Below are positions 1 to 19,849 of a DNA stretch of 20,055 nucleotides, piece after piece. The notes under the pieces are model-generated. The model did not search any database, had not been told where the DNA came from, and saw nothing but the letters and a program-made list of their open reading frames with translations. Position 1 is the stretch's first letter, and every line of letters begins with the position of its first letter. Source of the stretch: a virus; IMG/VR virus record IMGVR_UViG_3300037805_000421, positions 1 to 20,055 of that record. One strand, given 5' to 3'. Made by a program: the position numbers and the translations under genes.

Positions 1-2923
1 TTCCTCCAGTAGAACCCCCTGTGCTTCCCGAAGGAACACCAGTAGAACCCCCTGTGCTTCCCGAAGGAACACCAGTAGAACCCCCTGTGCTTCCCGAAGG
101 AACACCAGTAGAACCACCCACAACTTGAAGTGCTTCCCATTCTTTTGCGTATCCCAAAATGCCAGCAAGGACATTACCACCACCCAACTGCTTGAAGAAA
201 TCTAAATTTAAAGCCCCTGCAAGATTGCTTACCTCTTGATCGAACTCTTTATAAATAGGGCTTCCCTGCTGCACAACCCCTGCCTCGTATGCCTCTAAAC
301 CATACAACCCCGAATTTGATAAGCTGGTCATTCTCTTTTGCTTTTCAATCGTGCTACCGGCTTCAGGATGAAGGGACAATAAAAGAGCATCTATTATATC
401 TTCAAAGACTTCATCAGATAATTTTTGTAAAGCAACATCAAGACCCTTCTCATCAACCTGGATACTTTTAAAATAAGCTTCAGGTAAGGTCTTTGCTAAG
501 TCAACCCCAGGTATTTTGTTAAGCTCATTAAAAACCCCGTCAAAATAATCAACTACCATCTGAGTTATCTGGTTTTCTTTTTCAGGAGCAAGACCAAGGT
601 TACCAGCCCCGGCAACAAATCCGAATTCGTCTGAATAAATAGTTGTCCCGACCGCTTTTGGATATGTGAACCCTTTTTTACCAAACCCAATAGCAGGAAG
701 TTCTGACCATCCAGGAGCCTGGAACCCTTCAAGGATTCCTTTCATAACCCAACCGGCGAAAGCTGTAAACCCTGCCGTTGCTAAACCGGAAGCCAGACCG
801 CTTGACAAGAAACCTGATCCTGAAGCTGAAGCACTTGCACCAGCCCCCCAACCCCCACCACCGATAATCCCGGCGTTTCCTATTTCAAGACTATAAGCTG
901 TGTTGCCAGCAATTGCAGCACTTGCTGCAGCACCAGAAGTACTGCCACCACCAAGCAAAGACTTAATTAAACCACTTAAACCTCCACCACTACCGCTTCC
1001 CCCTGTCAATCCACCGGTAAGGCTTCCGATCAAACCCCCTGAACCATTGGACCCAAAGATTTGTTTTAACGCCCATTCTGTAGCCATCTGACCCAAAATA
1101 TCAGTAAAGTTTTTGAGCATACTATTTAAAAGGGTTTCCCAGGCATCCCCTATGTCTTTAAAATCCCCTTTTATAATAGCAAAGAAAGAATCAGAAAACG
1201 CCTTGCTCATTCCACTGGAAATAGTATCTGCCATTTTTTGACCATGCTCTGCCCAAGTGGTAGTCTGCTTTTGGGCATCACTCATGCCGATTTTAAAACC
1301 ATCAAAGAAAGTTCCTGTTGCCAAGAGCATATCTTTTTGCCCTTTGATTACAGCAGCATTAACTTTTTCTTGATCTATTATTGTAAGGTTAGATAAGTCT
1401 TTTGTAACCTTATAAGAAGCTTCATGGATTAATTTAAAATCTGCTGCCTTTTTTTCAAGTAACTTTTTTTCTTCTGCAATCGCTAAAATTGTTTCGTTGC
1501 CTACAACCTTACTTAATCCCTGGACAACTTTATAAATGTCCTCATGATTCTTTTTCCAGTTTAAAACACGTTCATCAAGTTTATCTTTTTCAAATTTTAT
1601 TAACGCTTTTTCATCATCAGTAAGTTGTATGATATCTTTTGAAGCATCTTTAATACCATCCGACCATTTGCCAAAATCTAAATAAGAATCATCTTGTGCC
1701 AAGCTTAATGCTTCAGTGGTTGACGTTAAATCTTTTATTCGTGCTTCGGTATCTTTTAAAGCTTTGGTTGATTCCTGAAGGTTATCCAAGACTCTTTTTT
1801 TTGCTGCTGATCCAAAAGTTTTTTCATACCTCTTATCAAGTTCTTCTATCTCATCTCTTAATTTTGTAGCCTGTAATTCTAAAAACCCCAAGTCAGTTTC
1901 AAAAAGCTTAACAGTAGAAACACCATCCAGTATCGCAGTTTTCCAACTTATAAGACCGGTTGAAGCAAGACCCATTGCTTTGGAAATATCAACCATCGCA
2001 TTAAAGAATTTAACACTGAACCCACCGGCTTTAATCAAAGATGTCCCGACAACCAAAAGATTCTTAGAAAATTCTCCAAGCTGATCTATAACAGTTGGAT
2101 TCTGTTTTATCATTTCATTGGTCTGAAAGACCCATTCAGTTACTTCAGGTAAAAGCTTGACCCCGATAGCAGCAGAAATGTCTTCGATATTAGCTTTCAA
2201 CTGCTTCATCTGGTTGGCAAAAGAACCCATTGTTCTCTTTTGATCCCCAATTGCAGCAGCAGAACCTTTTAAGATAAGTTTAAATGCAACCCAGGCTTTA
2301 GTGTTAGCATCCACCATACCTTTACCGTTCCAAAGACCCATGTCCAAAGCAGCTTGCTTTATTACAGTTTCGTTTAAAACGACCCCGTATTTTTTCATGG
2401 TTTCAAAGTTACCAACCAAAGCACTCTGAATATCAAGCATTACCGTTGCCGTTGGCAAATTATTAAATGACCCCAAATCAGCAGCAAGCTTTACAACTTC
2501 ATTTGACATTTTAAGGGCTTCATCGGAAGCCATGCCCATTGGAACCAATAAGTCTTGAATACTGGAAAGATAAAGTTTTGATTCCTTTGTTGACATTGCA
2601 TAAGAATCAACAAGGACTTTTGCCATTTTTTCAGCTTCTTTTCTATTGCTTTCAAAAACAACATTGAATTTACCTGTTGTTTCTTCCAGGTCACTTGCTG
2701 CTTTTATGGCTTTGCCCATCCCAACTGCAGCAGTAGTACCAAAAGCAACCAAAGCAACTGACGTTATGCCAAGGGCTTTTTTAACGCTTGCCGTGTCAAG
2801 AGCAAGGCTTTTCATGCCCTTTGAAGCTTTAGTGGTACTCTTGTCTATATTATCACCAAACTTCTTAACCTTTAAAGAACCTTTATCATCAACAACTAAT
2901 TCTAATTTTAATGTCTTAGCCAT
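1..2923 (-). CDS. Tail tape measure protein (partial, C-terminus beyond the window)
   Basis: An open frame of 974 codons starts at ATG 2923 and runs off the left edge without a stop. In siphophages this protein sits inside the tail tube, sets tail length and helps DNA delivery. Seen: a lysine-rich start (MAKTLKLELV), a hydrophobic Ala/Gly/Val stretch near residues 45-65, a helical middle rich in Lys/Glu/Gln with coiled-coil character, then a Gly/Ser/Ala-rich hydrophobic part at about residues 610-710 (antisense to 790-1090). It ends in the window in an 11-residue Gly/Ser/Thr repeat. Length, order after the chaperone pair and composition fit the family. I saw no clear transglycosylase or peptidase motif. 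The start overlaps the end of the frameshifted chaperone frame by 8 bases, which suggests coupling. Confidence 0.9.
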   Translation of the reverse strand, partial: MAKTLKLELVVDDKGSLKVKKFGDNIDKSTTKASKGMKSLALDTASVKKALGITSVALVAFGTTAAVGMGKAIKAASDLEETTGKFNVVFESNRKEAEKMAKVLVDSYAMSTKESKLYLSSIQDLLVPMGMASDEALKMSNEVVKLAADLGSFNNLPTATVMLDIQSALVGNFETMKKYGVVLNETVIKQAALDMGLWNGKGMVDANTKAWVAFKLILKGSAAAIGDQKRTMGSFANQMKQLKANIEDISAAIGVKLLPEVTEWVFQTNEMIKQNPTVIDQLGEFSKNLLVVGTSLIKAGGFSVKFFNAMVDISKAMGLASTGLISWKTAILDGVSTVKLFETDLGFLELQATKLRDEIEELDKRYEKTFGSAAKKRVLDNLQESTKALKDTEARIKDLTSTTEALSLAQDDSYLDFGKWSDGIKDASKDIIQLTDDEKALIKFEKDKLDERVLNWKKNHEDIYKVVQGLSKVVGNETILAIAEEKKLLEKKAADFKLIHEASYKVTKDLSNLTIIDQEKVNAAVIKGQKDMLLATGTFFDGFKIGMSDAQKQTTTWAEHGQKMADTISSGMSKAFSDSFFAIIKGDFKDIGDAWETLLNSMLKNFTDILGQMATEWALKQIFGSNGSGGLIGSLTGGLTGGSGSGGGLSGLIKSLLGGGSTSGAAASAAIAGNTAYSLEIGNAGIIGGGGWGAGASASASGSGFLSSGLASGLATAGFTAFAGWVMKGILEGFQAPGWSELPAIGFGKKGFTYPKAVGTTIYSDEFGFVAGAGNLGLAPEKENQITQMVVDYFDGVFNELNKIPGVDLAKTLPEAYFKSIQVDEKGLDVALQKLSDEVFEDIIDALLLSLHPEAGSTIEKQKRMTSLSNSGLYGLEAYEAGVVQQGSPIYKEFDQEVSNLAGALNLDFFKQLGGGNVLAGILGYAKEWEALQVVGGSTGVPSGSTGGSTGVPSGSTGGSTGVPSGSTGGSTGG
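6..116 (-). repeat. 33-bp perfect tandem repeat in the tape measure gene
   Basis: Three identical 33-bp units occupy 6-38, 39-71 and 72-104, and a partial copy follows at 105-116. Each unit encodes 11 residues, GVPSGSTGGST, in the tape measure frame, so copy number can change without a frameshift. The tract abuts the window edge and positions 1-5 already differ from the unit, so this end of the array may be near. Confidence 0.95.
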
Positions 2924-3260
2924 TTTGAATCTCTTTTATCTTCAGTATAACGATATTGATTTTTTCCCAAAACAAGGGACGTTGATCTGCTTCAATTTGA
3001 AAGTCGTTTAAAATATTTGTAATCAGTGTCATATTGAAACCGCTTGAAGGGTGGTGGAACCCTGGCAAAATCTTGCCAAATAAATAATAGAAGTCAGAAT
3101 TCGATTCGTCCAGAAATTCCACCACCCCCCTTTTACACTTTTTAACATACGGTTCACCCTTGCACTTAACTTTTACAAAACCGTCTTTAACCGCTATTCT
3201 ACATTTTCGGCAAGATGAACTTCCTTTGCCGAACTTCCATCCTGCCCATGCTGCAAATTT
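2916..3260 (-). CDS. T-like extension of the tail assembly chaperone, made by -1 frameshift
   Basis: This frame is -1 relative to the upstream chaperone gene and is open from just after a TGA at 3263-3261 to a TAA at 2918-2916. Before GTG 3125 it has no ATG, GTG or TTG codon, yet the part from 3260 to 3125 looks coding: it has Cys at 3212, 3203, 3164 and 3137 (C-x2-C-x12-C-x8-C) and continues smoothly into the downstream part. This is the layout of lambda G and G-T, where a -1 slip yields a long chaperone that recruits the tape measure protein to the tail tube subunit. After slipping at AAATTTG the fusion would have 111 residues from the first frame plus 112 from this one. The GTG at 3125 alone would give a 69-residue product, which I think is not the main one. 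Confidence 0.8.
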   Translation of the reverse strand, partial: KFAAWAGWKFGKGSSSCRKCRIAVKDGFVKVKCKGEPYVKKCKRGVVEFLDESNSDFYYLFGKILPGFHHPSSGFNMTLITNILNDFQIEADQRPLFWEKINIVILKIKEIQNG

Positions 3261-3586
3261 TCAAGTTCGCCTTTAATAATAGACTCAAACCCGACATTCC
3301 ATGAATACACAAAACCGGCAATACCACCCAAATTATAATCAAAGACCCTTTCTTTTGTTTCTTTTGTGCATTTTAATTCTTTGTCATTGCTATCAACAAT
3401 CTTTCGCCAGTTCTCAACAGAGTACATAAAAATGCTTTTACGCTGTTCCCCTGGAACTGTTAAAGACTGATCTACCGACATGATAAAATCGTTCCTGCCT
3501 ATCGGATAAGGTCTTAAAAACAATTCGCAATCTTCATACTTAACCCATCTTGCCTTGTACGTTTCCCTTGACATTTGTAACTTCAT
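3194..3586 (-). CDS. Tail assembly chaperone (G-like)
   Basis: This 130-residue protein lies between the tail tube genes and the tape measure gene, which is the usual place for the lambda gpG-type tail assembly chaperone. The family holds the tape measure protein soluble during tail assembly. The protein is charged and soluble, with no membrane segment or signal peptide. It starts at ATG 3586 behind AAAGGG at a good spacing. The last 19 codons overlap the -1 frame that encodes the T-like extension, with the slippery heptamer at 3260-3254. Assignment rests on position, size and the overlapping -1 frame rather than on a diagnostic motif. Confidence 0.8.
   Translation of the reverse strand: MKLQMSRETYKARWVKYEDCELFLRPYPIGRNDFIMSVDQSLTVPGEQRKSIFMYSVENWRKIVDSNDKELKCTKETKERVFDYNLGGIAGFVYSWNVGFESIIKGELENLQHGQDGSSAKEVHLAENVE
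3254..3260 (-). promoter_or_regulatory. Candidate -1 ribosomal slippery heptamer AAATTTG
   Basis: On the minus strand the heptamer reads A AAT TTG in the frame of the upstream chaperone gene, which is the canonical X XXY YYZ form. Re-pairing one base back gives AAA TTT, then GCA in the new frame. A TGA in the -1 frame lies directly before it and the zero-frame stop is 58 bases further on, so the shift must happen in this short interval. Confidence 0.75.
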
Positions 3587-3603: not shown

Positions 3604-4482
3604 TTAAACATTAGCTGTAAATGATGGAGTCCCATCAATAGTAAAATCAAGTGTTTCTTTTACGTTATCCCCAACTGATCCTGCAACAGCATCACCAGAA
3701 AACAAAACCCAACAATTAAAATGATCCCCTGTCTGGTCCTGGTCTGGATCGTAATTAAAGAGTTGCAAAAAGAAGAACTCTTTATTCGTAATGCCGTCAA
3801 TCATTGAATCAGAACCGATAAAAAAGCTTGATGCACTCCCCGTTCCTGATCCTTGACCTACTGTATTGTGTTTCCACTTCTGACCCATGTAAGACTGATC
3901 TGCCAAATCAAGAGTGATATTAAAAGACCAATCGGTAAGATACCCAACCTTTTCCAAACCAGACGTTTCAATTTGTCCGAGGTTCCCTGCAACCGTTACA
4001 GTTCCAACATTGCCTGTAAAATAAGCAGTGCCGGTTGTATAATCAATTCTTAAAACTGTTTTCCCGCCATCATCAGTAAAAACCGGTGGATTATTAGGGT
4101 CAAGAATCCTTTTGGTTGTGTCGGTTATCTGAGCCGAAGCACCGGAAGCAGTGCAAGGTTCTGCAAACAAGTTCCCAACCGTCCATTCATCCAATAACGT
4201 ATGACCTGTTGTTGCAGCAAAAGTAATTGTCTGAGTGTCGGAAAGGGCTTGTGCTGCTCCGGTAATCGCAACCGTTGCAGTATACGCACCCCCGTCTTTT
4301 CTCCATTTAAAAGTATCCGGGGTTCCCTCTGCATCAATCTCAACCTCAAAGAAAGCAGAGTCAGCAGCAGAATAAGCGGTTCCCCAGGTAACATCATTAA
4401 GCCCTGCCCCTGAGAAACCGTTCGGTCTGAGTCTATATATTGCCCCATGTCTGCCATGTTGCGGTGTTGTCGGTGAAGCCAT
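3604..4482 (-). CDS. Large tail tube protein paralog with inserted domain
   Basis: This 292-residue protein is a paralog of the 137-residue protein encoded just upstream. Both have HGR at residues 9-11. Both also share a DWS-x-N block (residue 184 here, 27 there), W-K-x-N-x-VGQG after it, and an SVGD...DFT-x-DG C-terminus. Between HGR and DWS this copy carries about 160 extra residues with a beta-rich, Thr/Gly-rich composition (for example FFEVEIDAEGTPDTFKWRK and TVTVAGNLGQ). I infer a tail tube or tube-decorating subunit with an inserted domain that may project outward. The order of tail terminator, tube and chaperone supports a tail tube role. Which paralog forms most of the tube cannot be told from the sequence. 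Confidence 0.8.
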   Translation of the reverse strand: MASPTTPQHGRHGAIYRLRPNGFSGAGLNDVTWGTAYSAADSAFFEVEIDAEGTPDTFKWRKDGGAYTATVAITGAAQALSDTQTITFAATTGHTLLDEWTVGNLFAEPCTASGASAQITDTTKRILDPNNPPVFTDDGGKTVLRIDYTTGTAYFTGNVGTVTVAGNLGQIETSGLEKVGYLTDWSFNITLDLADQSYMGQKWKHNTVGQGSGTGSASSFFIGSDSMIDGITNKEFFFLQLFNYDPDQDQTGDHFNCWVLFSGDAVAGSVGDNVKETLDFTIDGTPSFTANV

Positions 4483-4494
4483 TATTCACCCCCC

Positions 4495-4908
4495 TTATGC
4501 TACAGTGAGAGCCAATGCCCCGTCACCTGTAAAATCAAAGGAACAATTAACAGTGTCACCCACGCTTGCACTTGTGGCAAATCCATTCAAAAAGATATTC
4601 CCTGAGAAATAGTCCCCAGTATCTTCAAGCATAAATTTAAGGTCTGTAATTTTTGTTCCTGGTGAAGCAGTGATAATGTTATCAAGCAATGCTTTCTGTT
4701 CAGTATTACCGGCAACAAAATGGAAAGTCATTGATCCATTCCAACCACCCTGACCAACTACGTTTTCTTTCCATGCCTGACCCTGCCTTGAAGCATCACT
4801 TAAATCAATACTGGCATTAATTGACCAATCCACTGAATAATCAATTAATGACCCACCATCGTCAATCCTGCAAACTCTGCCGTGAATTGGTGCTGTGTTC
4901 CCTGCCAT
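4495..4908 (-). CDS. Tail tube protein (short paralog)
   Basis: This 137-residue protein sits where siphophages encode the major tail protein that polymerises into the tail tube. It starts at ATG 4908 behind GGAG from the end of the upstream small gene. It has a beta-rich pattern, with SVDWSINASIDLSD at about residues 25-38 and WKENVVGQGGWNGSMTFHF after it. The C-terminal segment (SVGDTVNCSFDFTGDG) also occurs in the larger neighbour. This compact form is probably the basic tube subunit and the neighbour the derived copy, but that direction is inferred from size alone. Confidence 0.8.
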   Translation of the reverse strand: MAGNTAPIHGRVCRIDDGGSLIDYSVDWSINASIDLSDASRQGQAWKENVVGQGGWNGSMTFHFVAGNTEQKALLDNIITASPGTKITDLKFMLEDTGDYFSGNIFLNGFATSASVGDTVNCSFDFTGDGALALTVA

Positions 4909-10343: not shown

Positions 10344-12296
10344 TTAAATTATAGATAAATAACAATCACAACCTTGATGCAACCCAGGATGAGATTTAGT
10401 ACCGTTTATTTTCATTACACCGTCAGCACCGGCAGGGTCTAATTTGTCACCAGACTTCACAAAGCTTTGTCCACGACCCACCTTTTTCCCGTTCAAGCTT
10501 TTACAATATGGACAAGTTTCTGCCCCTCTTATTCTCCAGACTGTAGAAAGCCCTGCCGACCATACAACTGCCTGGAAAGCAAAATTTGATGCCCTGACCC
10601 CTTCGTCTGCTTTTATCTTGTCCGGTCTTTTGTCCTGCCATTCATCTGCTCTTTGAACTATGGCATCCATTCCGTCAGGAACAATTGCCAGCATCTGACC
10701 CTTGGAAGAAGAAACGTGTCTTAAAGTGTAAGTATCAACATATTCCTGAGTATCTTTTTCTAAATCTTCTTCAGTTTTCAGTTCATTATTTGTGGCATCT
10801 ATAATGGACGAAATGTAAGACCTTAAAACCGGTCCCATTTTCTGTTCAATATATTCAGGGAATTTCTCATAAAAATCATTCAAAAAGACCTTCATGGAAG
10901 TTTTATCTCTTGTCGGTGTTAATGCTTCCTTCTTGATCGCTTTGGTTTCTCTATTTACGACCGCCCTGGCAGCATCATAAATCAATGGGGCATATTGTTT
11001 TTGTATCCGGTCCCGTAATCTTATAGACTGAGATTCTGAAATTCTGGTTTCCGGTTCCTTGAAAAATGTTCTAAAATCTGTATCAAACGGTTCATCTGCC
11101 TGGTCCAAAGGTATCATATTGAGCATAATATACTTTTTATCGGCTTCCGGTGAAGGATCAGGATTCATGTTTTCTTTAGCTCTTATCTCATTAGGGCTTA
11201 TACCACCAACCTGGAATATCTTATTATAAAACTCTGCCCTTGCTTGAGAATCACCCCTTAAAAGACCCTGAACTGCAAATTCAAAGAATAAACCTGATCT
11301 TCTTTCCTGTTCTGTTAAAAGCTGCAAAGAGATTGCACTTTCCCATCTGACAATCCAACCCATTAGGCAGGAGTCCACATACGAACCGTTTTCTTGTTCA
11401 AGATTATTCCGGTTAGAATTTGCCCCGTGTAAGGCTATTTTGTGCGGTGGAACATGATACATTCCGCAAATTTCCTTCTTTTGGAAGTCCCTGGTGCTTA
11501 AAAATTGAGCATCGTCCATCGAAACGGTTAATGGTTGGTATTCTCCCCCACCCTCTGCAACCATGACCTTATGAGCCTTTCCAAGCCCCGAAAACCCTTC
11601 TTTTAATGCTGCATTGAATTGTTTCCTGTTTTCTTCCGTTAAAGTTTCCTTTATTTTATAAATTCCTGAAGGATGAGTCCCTTCACCGAAATAAGTAGAA
11701 CCGAAATCTTCTGTTGCAAGCCCAAGCCCAATGGCTTCCCGTGCAAGCCCGACCATTGACTTACCGACAAGACCATTGAACCCAAACCCCGGAATGTGAA
11801 AAACCTCTCTCCTTGTCCTAACCTTATCCTCACCATTGACTTTATATGTGTATAAAAGCTCGTTCTTTTTATTTCTATGGATCTTTATTTGACCAGGGTC
11901 CGGTAATTGCCATAAATTTTTTATCTTTCCACCAATATCTTCCCTGTCTATAAAGGCGTATGAGTTGCCCCATAATAAAAGATGCCCTTGTAAAGTTTCC
12001 CGAAAATTAAAAGAAGTTGTGTCCTGATTCGGTCTATTATGAAGAATATCGTATAAATGATGATCTGTTATTAAGTCTTTACCACCACTTTTTCTTTTTT
12101 TGTATAAATTTAAGGGTAATTTAGCAATATCTCCTGCTATAAGAGTAACACAAGCCAAGACCGTTAAATATTTCAGGGCTTCTTTTTCATCAACTTTCAC
12201 CCCTGCTTTTGTCGTTTGTGCAGGACCATACCAGAAATCATCGTAAGCAGATATTTGTCCTGAAAGGTTCCTTAAAATCTTCGTAAATAATCCCAT
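10344..12296 (-). CDS. Portal protein fused to a MuF-type C-terminal domain
   Basis: Residues 1 to about 400 are an HK97-type portal (early YLTVLACVTLIAGDIAKLPLNLY, then LLWGNSYAFIDRE, and GMYHVPPHKIALHGANSNRNNLEQ) forming the dodecameric DNA channel at the capsid vertex. Family portals usually end near 380-450 residues; this protein has 650. The extra part is helical and ends in a Cys/His module: CPYC at 595-598, His 636 and 640, Cys 643 and 645 (HPGLHQGCDC). That pattern is typical of the MuF/SPP1 gp7 head morphogenesis family, usually a separate gene after the portal. No separate MuF gene exists here, which supports a functional fusion. Start ATG 12296 is 3 bases after the previous stop. 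Confidence 0.9.
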   Translation of the reverse strand: MGLFTKILRNLSGQISAYDDFWYGPAQTTKAGVKVDEKEALKYLTVLACVTLIAGDIAKLPLNLYKKRKSGGKDLITDHHLYDILHNRPNQDTTSFNFRETLQGHLLLWGNSYAFIDREDIGGKIKNLWQLPDPGQIKIHRNKKNELLYTYKVNGEDKVRTRREVFHIPGFGFNGLVGKSMVGLAREAIGLGLATEDFGSTYFGEGTHPSGIYKIKETLTEENRKQFNAALKEGFSGLGKAHKVMVAEGGGEYQPLTVSMDDAQFLSTRDFQKKEICGMYHVPPHKIALHGANSNRNNLEQENGSYVDSCLMGWIVRWESAISLQLLTEQERRSGLFFEFAVQGLLRGDSQARAEFYNKIFQVGGISPNEIRAKENMNPDPSPEADKKYIMLNMIPLDQADEPFDTDFRTFFKEPETRISESQSIRLRDRIQKQYAPLIYDAARAVVNRETKAIKKEALTPTRDKTSMKVFLNDFYEKFPEYIEQKMGPVLRSYISSIIDATNNELKTEEDLEKDTQEYVDTYTLRHVSSSKGQMLAIVPDGMDAIVQRADEWQDKRPDKIKADEGVRASNFAFQAVVWSAGLSTVWRIRGAETCPYCKSLNGKKVGRGQSFVKSGDKLDPAGADGVMKINGTKSHPGLHQGCDCYLSII

Positions 12297-14157: not shown

Positions 14158-14612
14158 GTGCCGAACTCCTTAAACTTGTCTTTCTTTTTATCTTTAACCT
14201 TCGTTGCAGTAACACTTGCCCTCTTTGCCGGTGACATTCCGAATTCCCCTGCAAACTTGTATACTTGTTCATAGGCTTTGTTTAAAACCCACATTGCAGG
14301 AGAAAGAATAATATTACCGTTACTTGTTTTATATAATTCTCCTTTGCCTGCAATGATCTTCTCATATTTTACAACCCTTCCCCAAGCCTGACAATATATT
14401 GCCAATGCTGCCATATCTATTTTAGAAAGAAGCCCCAGGTCAACCAATTGCTTTGAAATCCTGTTCCATTCAATAAGCCCTGCTTCTGATAAAAACTCCG
14501 GTGGTTCTGGAATACCAATATCAGGCATCGGTTCATTTGGGTTTAACCGGTCTGCCCGTTGTGTCCCTTTTAATAACTTTAGTTGTGTCGGCAATTTTTT
14601 ACGCCCTGCCAT
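14154..14612 (-). CDS. Terminase small subunit, P27 family
   Basis: This 152-residue protein starts MAGRKKLPTQLKLLKGTQR, the typical opening of P27-type small terminases, followed by a Pro-rich segment (PMPDIGIPEPPEFLS), and then helices with LIEWNRISKQLVDLGLLSKID and ALAIYCQAWGRVVKYE. The C-terminus is Lys-rich. The small subunit recognises the packaging site and hands DNA to the large subunit encoded next, with a 4-base overlap. Its 5' end overlaps the end of the methyltransferase fragment by 14 bases. Confidence 0.92.
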   Translation of the reverse strand: MAGRKKLPTQLKLLKGTQRADRLNPNEPMPDIGIPEPPEFLSEAGLIEWNRISKQLVDLGLLSKIDMAALAIYCQAWGRVVKYEKIIAGKGELYKTSNGNIILSPAMWVLNKAYEQVYKFAGEFGMSPAKRASVTATKVKDKKKDKFKEFGT

Positions 14613-14811
14613 TTAAGACCGCCTTTCCACCGGTGTATTCTTCCCACCGTTTTATAATTACATCACAATAATGCTCGTCAAGTTCCATCATCCTGCATTG
14701 CTTATTGGTTTTCTCACAAGCTATTAATGTTCCCCCTGCCCCACCATAAATATCAGCAACAATCTTTTTATCTTTTAAACTATAATAATCAAAAAACCAT
14801 TCGACCAGCAA
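14599..14811 (-). pseudogene. C-terminal fragment of the DNA methyltransferase, out of frame
   Basis: This 70-residue frame carries the end of a beta-class amino-methyltransferase: VADIYGGAGGTLIACEKT, the motif I (SAM-binding) loop, then CRMMELDEHYCDVIIKRWEEYTG. It lies in the -1 frame relative to the ParB/methyltransferase gene upstream and joins it right after FELCWS. In related proteins about 35-40 residues, including an HPTQKP segment, separate those two points, so a deletion is likely. The only available start is TTG 14811, with no clear ribosome site. It could be reached by a -1 slip at T TTT TTG (14796-14790), but the missing segment would remain missing. Confidence 0.75.
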
Positions 14812-15662
14812 AGTTCAAATGTTGACCCATACATTTTATCGGCACTTTCATCAAGCCTTTTATCCCACACAATCCAACTACCATCATTTTTATTTTGTAA
14901 ATGCTCTGAATAATAATCTGCACCCCATAAAAAGATTTCTTTGCAATAACTAAATGATTTAAAAACTGTATCTATTAATTCTGGCGTGAAGTCATCATGA
15001 TCACCAATAACCTGTTTATGCTTCTTACCACCTAAAGCATTTTTTTCTTTGGCAAAAGCTAAAGAAGATTTAGCAGAACTCCAATCAGTATCCAGGTACA
15101 TTCCATAAGGAGGATCAGTAAAAACCATGTCAGCCTTTTGCCCACCCATCAATCTTTCAACCTGTTCAATGTCTGTGCTGTCACCACATAAAAGCCGGTG
15201 TTCACCAAGTATCCACAAGTCCCCCAGGACACAAATAGATTCTTCAACCTCTGGAACAGCATCATCTTCGGTCAACCCTTTCTTTTCTTCTTCTAAACTA
15301 AAGCCGGTCAACTCAATATCAAATTCCTCTGCACTCAATGCTTCAAGTTCGATCCCTATAAGTTCCTCATCCCAACCGGCATTGTCTGCCAATCGATTAT
15401 CAGCAAGGATATAAGCCTTCTTTTGTATGTCAGATAAATGTGAAAGCTCAATCACTGGGGCTTTAGAAAGTCCAAGCCTTCTTGCTGCCATCAATCGACC
15501 ATGACCGGCAATGATACCCTTATCCCCATCACACAATATAGGATTGTTAAACCCGAACTCTTTTATGCTGGCAGCTATCTGTGCCACCTGTTCATCTGAA
15601 TGAGTCCTGGCATTGTTAATGTAAGGAATTAGCGTTTCTATTTCACATTCTTTTATTTTAAT
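14775..15662 (-). CDS. ParB-like nuclease domain plus DNA methyltransferase, probably damaged
   Basis: From 15662 the frame encodes 295 residues. The N-terminus (KECEIETLIPYINNARTHSD, then IAASIKEFGFNNPIL) and AGHGRLMAARRLGL near residues 52-65 form a ParB/Srx-type domain; DPPYG at 183-187 is methyltransferase motif IV of a beta-class enzyme. The frame ends in FELCWSNGFLIIIV before motif I, which sits in another frame downstream. No ATG, GTG or TTG exists before residue 26 (GTG 15587), which would remove the first strands. GAGGGG with five bases spacing precedes ATT 15662, so initiation is at ATT or the ATG was lost. Such phage enzymes modify phage DNA; this copy may be inactive. Confidence 0.75.
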   Translation of the reverse strand: MKIKECEIETLIPYINNARTHSDEQVAQIAASIKEFGFNNPILCDGDKGIIAGHGRLMAARRLGLSKAPVIELSHLSDIQKKAYILADNRLADNAGWDEELIGIELEALSAEEFDIELTGFSLEEEKKGLTEDDAVPEVEESICVLGDLWILGEHRLLCGDSTDIEQVERLMGGQKADMVFTDPPYGMYLDTDWSSAKSSLAFAKEKNALGGKKHKQVIGDHDDFTPELIDTVFKSFSYCKEIFLWGADYYSEHLQNKNDGSWIVWDKRLDESADKMYGSTFELCWSNGFLIIIV

Positions 15663-15779: not shown

Positions 15780-16328
15780 TCATCCTACCAACCTTCCTTG
15801 GTTTTCGTTAGATAGTACCTTTGTGCCTTTCTTGCTATTACATAGGAAACAGCATAATTGAGTATTCTTCTTGCTATGCTCTCCGTTTTTGCTCAACGGA
15901 ATTATATGGTCAATAGTCGGTGTCATTAAGTCCGGAAATCTTGTTTCCATCTTCAGTTGAGATATACATATCTGGCATTTCCCACCATCTCTGTTATATA
16001 GAAAGAATACATCAACTTTTTCAACAAAATTCTCAACCGGTAAATCTTTGCTGCTGTAATAATAGTTGCCATTGTATTTTCTTTTAGTCTGATAACATCT
16101 TTGGCATTGTTCGGATCGTTTCAACTTAGGTTGTCCACAAATACACAAGTCCTTCTCTCTATTCAATCTCTTAACCTTCTTTGCTCTTTCAACCTGTTGA
16201 GTCCTGCACTTATCACAAAGCATTGTAACCGGTGAATCTTCTCCGCAACCACGACACAATCCAAGGAATACCCTCATTCTCTTAATCCACTTCCTTCTTT
16301 CTTTTGATTTGATTGTTAGCTTGCCCAT
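15780..16328 (-). CDS. HNH endonuclease with two N-terminal zinc ribbons
   Basis: This 182-residue basic protein starts at ATG 16328 behind AAGAAGGG. Residues 25-41 hold C-x2-C-x9-C-x2-C and residues 62-78 hold C-x-C-x10-C-x2-C, two likely zinc ribbons for DNA binding. The C-terminal third is an HNH nuclease: C118-x2-C121, TIDHIIPLSKNG with D140-H141, N155, and C160-x2-C163-N164, an HNN variant. It is either a free-standing homing endonuclease or a nuclease used in packaging. It overlaps the preceding HNH gene by 13 bases and precedes the methyltransferase and terminase genes. Confidence 0.88.
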   Translation of the reverse strand: MGKLTIKSKERRKWIKRMRVFLGLCRGCGEDSPVTMLCDKCRTQQVERAKKVKRLNREKDLCICGQPKLKRSEQCQRCYQTKRKYNGNYYYSSKDLPVENFVEKVDVFFLYNRDGGKCQICISQLKMETRFPDLMTPTIDHIIPLSKNGEHSKKNTQLCCFLCNSKKGTKVLSNENQGRLVG

Positions 16329-16693
16329 TGTGCTGCCCTTCTTTTATGGATTATTTCATGGCAAGATATACAAACGCTTTGAAGGTTTGATAATGTTAAT
16401 CTTAATTGTGGATGGGTTTCAATCGGTTTTATATGATGAACCAATGTTGCAATGATAAACTTTTTACTTTTAAGGCAGACTTCACAAAGAGAATCCTTAT
16501 TAATCTTTTTACTCCTGATAAATAACCAGTCTGCATCATAACCACGTTGTGCAGAGTTGCCCCGCTTTGAATCATACTTTCCTGCTGAAAGTTTTTTGCG
16601 TTGTTCTATGACCGGTCCGCAAACAGGGCAATAGGTTTCTATAGTTAAAACCCTTTTACATTTCCTGCATGGTTTCTTGGGAGTTACCGGCAT
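16316..16693 (-). CDS. HNH endonuclease (phage packaging type)
   Basis: This 125-residue protein has a zinc ribbon, C9-x2-C12-x9-C22-x2-C25. It then has YDSKRGNSAQRGYDADWLFI, a common segment of phage HNH proteins encoded before terminases, and the HNH core: C70-x2-C73, VHHIKP with H86-H87, N103, C108-x2-C111-H112 and H116. In HK97 the comparable protein (gp74) assists the terminase in DNA cleavage, and the same role is likely here. I chose ATG 16693 over 16735 because AGGA lies upstream at good spacing and the longer form would overlap the previous gene by 38 bases. Confidence 0.9.
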   Translation of the reverse strand: MPVTPKKPCRKCKRVLTIETYCPVCGPVIEQRKKLSAGKYDSKRGNSAQRGYDADWLFIRSKKINKDSLCEVCLKSKKFIIATLVHHIKPIETHPQLRLTLSNLQSVCISCHEIIHKRRAAQWAS

Positions 16694-16697
16694 TATA

Positions 16698-16937
16698 TTA
16701 TCCTGCGTAGTAAGATGGAACTTTAAAGCAACCACTTGGTTGACCGTGAATATGTTTACCCTTTAGGAAAATAGGAATGGTTGTTTCTTTTGGGAGCTTA
16801 ATTGGTTCAAGCCGGTTGATAGTGTTGCCCCTTAAAAAATAATATACAGCAGATTCATGTTCTCTTTTCTCCTGCCTGTTTTTTTTAAAATTCAAAAGCA
16901 AACCCCATAAAAGGTAATCTTTTTCGGAATATACCAT
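16698..16937 (-). CDS. Hypothetical protein (79 aa)
   Basis: This 79-residue basic protein begins MVYSEKDYLLWGLLLNFKKN and ends SGCFKVPSYYAG. It starts at ATG 16937 and stops 5 bases before the next gene's start. I do not recognise it and see no clear motif, signal peptide or membrane helix, though residues 8-16 are hydrophobic. It is the first gene after a 110-base gap with a candidate promoter, so it may head the transcript that runs into packaging genes. The ribosome site is weak. Confidence 0.5.
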   Translation of the reverse strand: MVYSEKDYLLWGLLLNFKKNRQEKREHESAVYYFLRGNTINRLEPIKLPKETTIPIFLKGKHIHGQPSGCFKVPSYYAG

Positions 16938-19645: not shown

Positions 19646-19849
19646 TCATATTTTATGTTCATGTATTTTATTGTGACATTCCCAACATACTGATAAAAGG
19701 TTCTTTACTGTATCCTTCCCACCTTGGCTTTTTAGCTTGATATGGTGACAGTGTAAAGAATGATCGTCAAAGTGGTATTGTCTTGGGCATAATTGACAAG
19801 AATAGTTGTCCCTTTCAAATACTTGGTTGACTATTTTTTTCGGTATCAT
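19646..19849 (-). CDS. Small HNH endonuclease (67 aa)
   Basis: This is a minimal HNH domain: VFERDNYSCQLC with C18-x2-C21, HCHHIKLKSQGGKD with H35-H36, N50, and C55-x2-C58-H59, ending in H63. All expected metal and catalytic positions are present. It starts at ATG 19849 behind AAGG. Domains this small occur as free-standing homing or phage nucleases. Its place upstream of the HTH and replication genes, away from the terminase, argues against a packaging role. It may be a mobile insertion in the early operon. Confidence 0.88.
   Translation of the reverse strand: MIPKKIVNQVFERDNYSCQLCPRQYHFDDHSLHCHHIKLKSQGGKDTVKNLLSVCWECHNKIHEHKI

Follow-up and report, generated by a model that had tools for sequence, protein, structure and literature searches.

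A probable −1 frameshifted G/GT tail assembly chaperone pair whose T domain carries a candidate four-cysteine metal site

Introduction

In phage lambda, G binds the tape measure protein, T binds the tail tube, and the ratio of G to the fusion protein GT is controlled (PMC5009743). Two features of the lambda system recur, the second of them as a prediction, in the locus described here: the position of the gene before that for the tape measure protein, and a −1 slip near the end of G through which T is appended to most of G (PMC5009743). In Escherichia coli, A_AAA_AAC is a weaker slip site than A_AAA_AAG (PMC5009743), and the weaker heptamer would suit the synthesis of GT at a low level. A_AAA_AAC is also found in two further phages: in the T1-like phage OzMSK, the G stop codon follows it at once, and the annotation gives T as a product of frameshifting in the tape measure chaperone, while in the Acinetobacter phage Loki it lies directly before the G stop codon, and gp12/gp13 are annotated as a frameshift fusion (PMC5313236). 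The E. coli dnaX gene shares with the present locus a three-part layout of Shine–Dalgarno-like stretch, slippery heptamer and downstream hairpin (PMC3711429), but it differs in the gene concerned, the heptamer and the purpose.

Here, we analyse a virus record of 20,055 bases (IMGVR_UViG_3300037805_000421), which is referred to throughout as the window. We conclude that it very probably encodes the G/GT tail assembly chaperone pair of a long-tailed phage, made by a −1 slip on A_AAT_TTG, and that T has a probable Cys4 metal site.

Results and Discussion

Genomic context

The minus strand of the window carries a structural block that is standard for a long-tailed phage: terminase, portal, protease, capsid, connectors, two tail tube proteins, G, T and a long gene. 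The part of the block that surrounds G and T is as follows, with two ORFs lying between the major tail protein and the tape measure gene.

4495–4908, minus strand: major tail tube protein, used as the neighbour probe
3604–4482, minus strand: second tail tube (major tail) protein, which has a long insertion in its N-terminal region (phrog_10528)
2–2923, minus strand: tape measure gene, cut off by the contig end and identified tentatively from position and length

The ATG of the tape measure gene (2923–2921) overlaps the end of T. Within this gene, at positions 6–115, there are 3.3 copies of a perfect 33-bp repeat that run up to the contig end and encode repeated GSTGGSTGVPS. The two tail tube proteins (3604–4908) stand in tandem and belong to the same family, both matching phrog_10528; the tandem pair is also seen in the related loci L008, L024, L025, L028 and L029, and L022 has one such gene. 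Elsewhere in the window, the portal protein (10344–12296) is extended at its C terminus by a long additional part that contains C-x2-C and GCDC motifs and is possibly a fused minor head protein, although this is a guess. A ParB-like/DNA methylase gene is divided into two ORFs of 270 and 70 aa (14599–15587, minus strand); its counterpart in a near relative (L122, 1514–2593) is an uninterrupted ORF of 359 aa whose middle part has diverged, as though this stretch had undergone exchange and the copy in the window were broken. Three HNH endonuclease ORFs lie at 15780–16735 and 19646–19849.

The overlap of G with the −1 frame

The elements from which the predicted frameshift was recognized are these.

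3586–3194, minus strand: G, the 0-frame ORF of 130 aa for the tail assembly chaperone
3263–3261, minus strand: TGA that ends the preceding −1 frame immediately 5' of the heptamer
3260–3254, minus strand: candidate slippery heptamer A_AAT_TTG, reading ..GAA AAT TTG.. in the G frame
2916–3254, minus strand: T, a −1 frame extension of 112 aa and a stop codon, with no start before GTG 3125
3125–3123, minus strand: GTG, the first ATG, GTG or TTG of the −1 frame and the first in-frame start of T, downstream of the Cys4 module

Beyond the TGA at 3263–3261, the −1 frame opens with the AAA TTT of the heptamer and continues to a stop at 2918–2916, the 112 codons of T running from 3254 to 2919. An earlier note on this DNA had described G as overlapping a −1 frame that lacks ATG, GTG and TTG from 3260 to 3125, with AAATTTG in the G frame at 3260–3254 directly after a −1 frame TGA; its coordinates are borne out, and the TGA is where it was said to be. 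The predicted GT junction at the heptamer reads ..GELENL|AAWAGW...

The 0-frame itself changes character at this point. The predicted structure of G is ordered to about residue 112, which is where the heptamer ends, and disordered beyond; the last 19 residues, after the heptamer, are poorly conserved as well as predicted to be disordered. In a comparison with the relative L008, dN/dS is 0.055 for G and a relaxed 0.50 for its 0-frame tail past the heptamer, both ratios being rough, as synonymous sites are near saturation.

In the long genes of the same loci, in-register X_XXY_YYZ heptamers occur at 0.0048 per codon, A_AAT_TTG being seen twice and A_AAA_AAC 11 times in 68,608 codons, and the chance of finding any in-register heptamer in the single overlap of the window is about 10%; the case for frameshifting therefore rests on conservation.

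Conservation of the slip site and its register

Six other contigs carry copies that are identical over the G/T region, and a genome bin of a Desulfobacula sp. includes a 4 kb contig with the same T. The host may therefore be a sulphate-reducing bacterium, although the assignment of a short viral contig to a bin is weak evidence. Direct searches reached L008 (G 76%, T 69%) and L015 (T 52%) and no further. Relatives were found by neighbourhood and profile searches, the tail tube gene probe yielding 79 loci; merging of the T proteins at 80% identity and the addition of hits from genomes of the phylum of the Desulfobacula bin left a non-redundant set of 50 T proteins. Among the neighbour-probed loci tallied, 53 extend 1,700 nt or more past the tail tube gene, and all of them have T. 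Wherever G was recognized as well, T overlaps it at an offset of −1 and has no conserved start of its own.

An in-register heptamer directly precedes T in 47 of the 50 non-redundant proteins, usually 6 nt before the start of the domain. The sites comprise 31 AAAAAAC, five AAATTTG, five AAAAAAA and two AAAAAAG, with CCCTTTG, AAACCCT, AAAAAAT and GGGAAAC once each, and in 19 relatives the G stop codon is directly 3' of the heptamer. These conservation statistics, like those for the stimulators below, ignore shared ancestry, so the 47 sites cannot be counted as independent events. A heptamer also accompanies each of the T matches from Desulfobacterota genomes, which were detected with the T protein profile only. 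At the codon level, the Leu of the heptamer is TTG in the window, L008, L015 and L024, and the Leu three positions before it is CTT, TTA, CTT or TTG in these four. T, in turn, is under purifying selection: dN/dS relative to L008 is 0.116 (a rough value, since synonymous sites are near saturation).

These data bear on two readings that dispense with frameshifting. According to the first, T would be translated from an internal start, for which GTG 3125 with a G-rich stretch before it is available, or ribosomes would re-initiate once past the stop codon of G; in the record of a T1-like phage, moreover, the frameshifted T is said to have a ribosome binding site of its own as well. Initiation at GTG 3125 would, however, omit the Cys4 module, which is the most conserved part of T, and the first start in the T frame is not conserved, falling at open-frame residue 57 in L015 and 79 in L024, whereas the heptamer and its register are. 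We therefore reject independent initiation as very improbable. According to the second, the open −1 frame is a product of decay or of chance, or a single gene appears split through an error in sequencing; errors do occur in public, metagenome-built virus collections such as that from which this contig comes. Against this, the region is identical in six other contigs, the division between G and T is repeated in dozens of relatives, and T is under selection, such that this explanation is scarcely credible and was likewise rejected. The frameshifted G/GT pair, as the earlier note had proposed it, is favoured by gene position, the −1 offset, the heptamers at 47 of the 50 sites, the selection on T and the matches of the G family to known chaperones. 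Among the 37 G proteins of the family, 19 match the PHROG tail assembly chaperone family phrog_313 (best E-value 1.3e-18); the G of the window resembles such proteins through its predicted fold, for which the named structural neighbours are mostly tail or tape-measure chaperones, with weak E-values that do not pass 0.001.

Three relatives (L027, L080 and L089) have no heptamer. In L027 (6130–6666), G and T form one in-frame ORF, a fusion that apparently arose by loss of the end of G. In L080 (2268–2290) and L089 (7140–7160), T is at −1 and X_XXY_YYZ is replaced by ACRGGACTGA; the sequences at the corresponding position are ACAGGACTGA and ACGGGACTGA, where most relatives have AAAAAACTGA or similar. 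Phage C119 has A_AAG_GTC_TAA at this position.

Candidate stimulatory elements

Two elements that may stimulate slipping flank the heptamer.

3274–3267, minus strand: AAAGGCGA, a weak Shine–Dalgarno-like stretch that precedes the heptamer by about 10 nt, putative upstream stimulator
3246–3209, minus strand: predicted stem-loop with an 11-bp outer stem (3246–3236 with 3219–3209), separated from the heptamer by a 7-nt spacer

The best duplex of the upstream stretch with the anti-Shine–Dalgarno sequence is −4.2 kcal/mol in the window, the family mean peaking at about −5.7 kcal/mol for 8-mers that end 4 to 7 nt before the heptamer and averaging about −1.3 kcal/mol further upstream. This upstream affinity exceeds that of synonymous resampling at 35 of 47 sites (P = 0.004, uncorrected for shared ancestry). 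On the other side, the 54 nt downstream of the heptamer are predicted to fold with −20.2 kcal/mol (z −4.55), none of 200 shuffles being as stable, and the stem-loop is a likely downstream stimulator. Folds with z < −2 are found at 16 of 47 family sites versus 19 of 282 control places, again uncorrected for shared ancestry. Inspection of the folds revealed no hairpin conserved base by base, the stems of the window and L015 being in slightly different registers; the hairpin is kept in kind, and we claim no covariation.

The T domain and its Cys4 module

Shortly after the G–T junction, T contains four cysteines.

3212–3135, minus strand: Cys4 module C-x2-C-x12-C-x8-C, candidate metal site, with Cys codons beginning at 3212, 3203, 3164 and 3137

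The spacing is exactly that read earlier from the segment, and the module is not peculiar to this phage: the four cysteines, with their CxxC pair or pairs, are the sole invariant columns among the aligned T proteins (43 of 43). Their spacing is mostly of two types, approximately C-x2-C-x11-15-C-x7-9-C, to which the window belongs, and C-x2-C-x12-13-C-x2-C.

An AlphaFold2 model of T is mostly helical with a mean pLDDT of 92.4. A structure search with this model found no solved relative; in a viral structure library it gave weak matches (E-values of 1 or more), three of which are tail or tape-measure chaperones. Direct searches with either G or T of the window returned no match in 50,697 phage records, Pfam or PHROGs. 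The comparison with known T domains that had been suggested for this segment thus gave a divided answer: the T of the window has no match and falls short of the curated cut-off of PF08809 (DUF1799), whereas in L027, L110 and L113 the C-terminal half of T, beyond the first Cys pair, scores higher than that cut-off against DUF1799. Most of the Pfam domain follows the Cys4 module. The helical part of T behind the module is remotely related to DUF1799-type T domains.

The Cys4 module probably holds a metal, structural zinc or other, with zinc as the simplest reading. Even if the frameshift is real, the four cysteines could instead hold an iron–sulphur cluster or act as a redox switch: four invariant cysteines fit a cluster and zinc alike, and the T copy in the Desulfobacula bin, together with the relatives in genomes of the same phylum, points to anaerobic hosts. 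CxxC pairs about 12 residues apart are, however, a usual layout of a structural zinc site, and we consider the cluster or switch rather unlikely. A bolder proposal, which has a small chance of being right, is that a large group of phages, probably of anaerobes, has an obligate metal site (zinc or iron–sulphur) in T, and that recruitment of the tail tube in these phages is metal- or redox-dependent.

Proposed mechanism

The slip site, its register and conservation, the coding selection on T, the predicted RNA hairpin and the invariance of the cysteines are given by the sequences; from them we infer slipping itself, a slip rate, the binding of metal and the binding partners, as follows. Most ribosomes would translate G to its stop codon, giving the 130-aa protein, and a minority would slip back one base on A_AAT_TTG, aided by the stem-loop 7 nt downstream and perhaps by the Shine–Dalgarno-like stretch upstream. 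The resulting GT fusion would have 223 aa, 111 from G and 112 from T. By analogy with lambda, G would coat the tape measure protein, the T part of GT would recruit tail tube subunits, and both proteins would leave before the tail is completed; the Cys4 module would probably serve as a structural site for zinc or another metal within T.

The family brings to the T part of tail chaperones, for which no solved relative was found, a candidate metal site that is well conserved. It also offers some 50 diverse but alignable frameshift cassettes of site, Shine–Dalgarno-like stretch and hairpin, across which the contributions of the elements can be compared.

Comparison with known systems

Unlike those of lambda, the proteins of the window have no database match to known G or T families, and T has the Cys4 module. 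To our knowledge, this module is absent from the T of lambda, and we found no tail assembly chaperone with a zinc, cysteine or zinc finger description in the open-access papers examined. T1-like phages (C119 of the Drexlerviridae, and OzMSK) have a homologous T domain, reached through L110 and likewise in the −1 frame; past the slip site it contains no Cys, unlike the T of the window. The model of the window T also weakly resembles the Loki protein (TMq 0.64, E 2.7), and the T of Loki, again in contrast to that of the window, is devoid of Cys. Since the homologous T of the T1-like phages is free of Cys, the Cys4 T domain is apparently a variant, consistent and hitherto undescribed, of a known kind of T domain, and the Cys-bearing T proteins and the Cys-free ones of the T1-like phages and Loki provide a natural comparison for the function of T.
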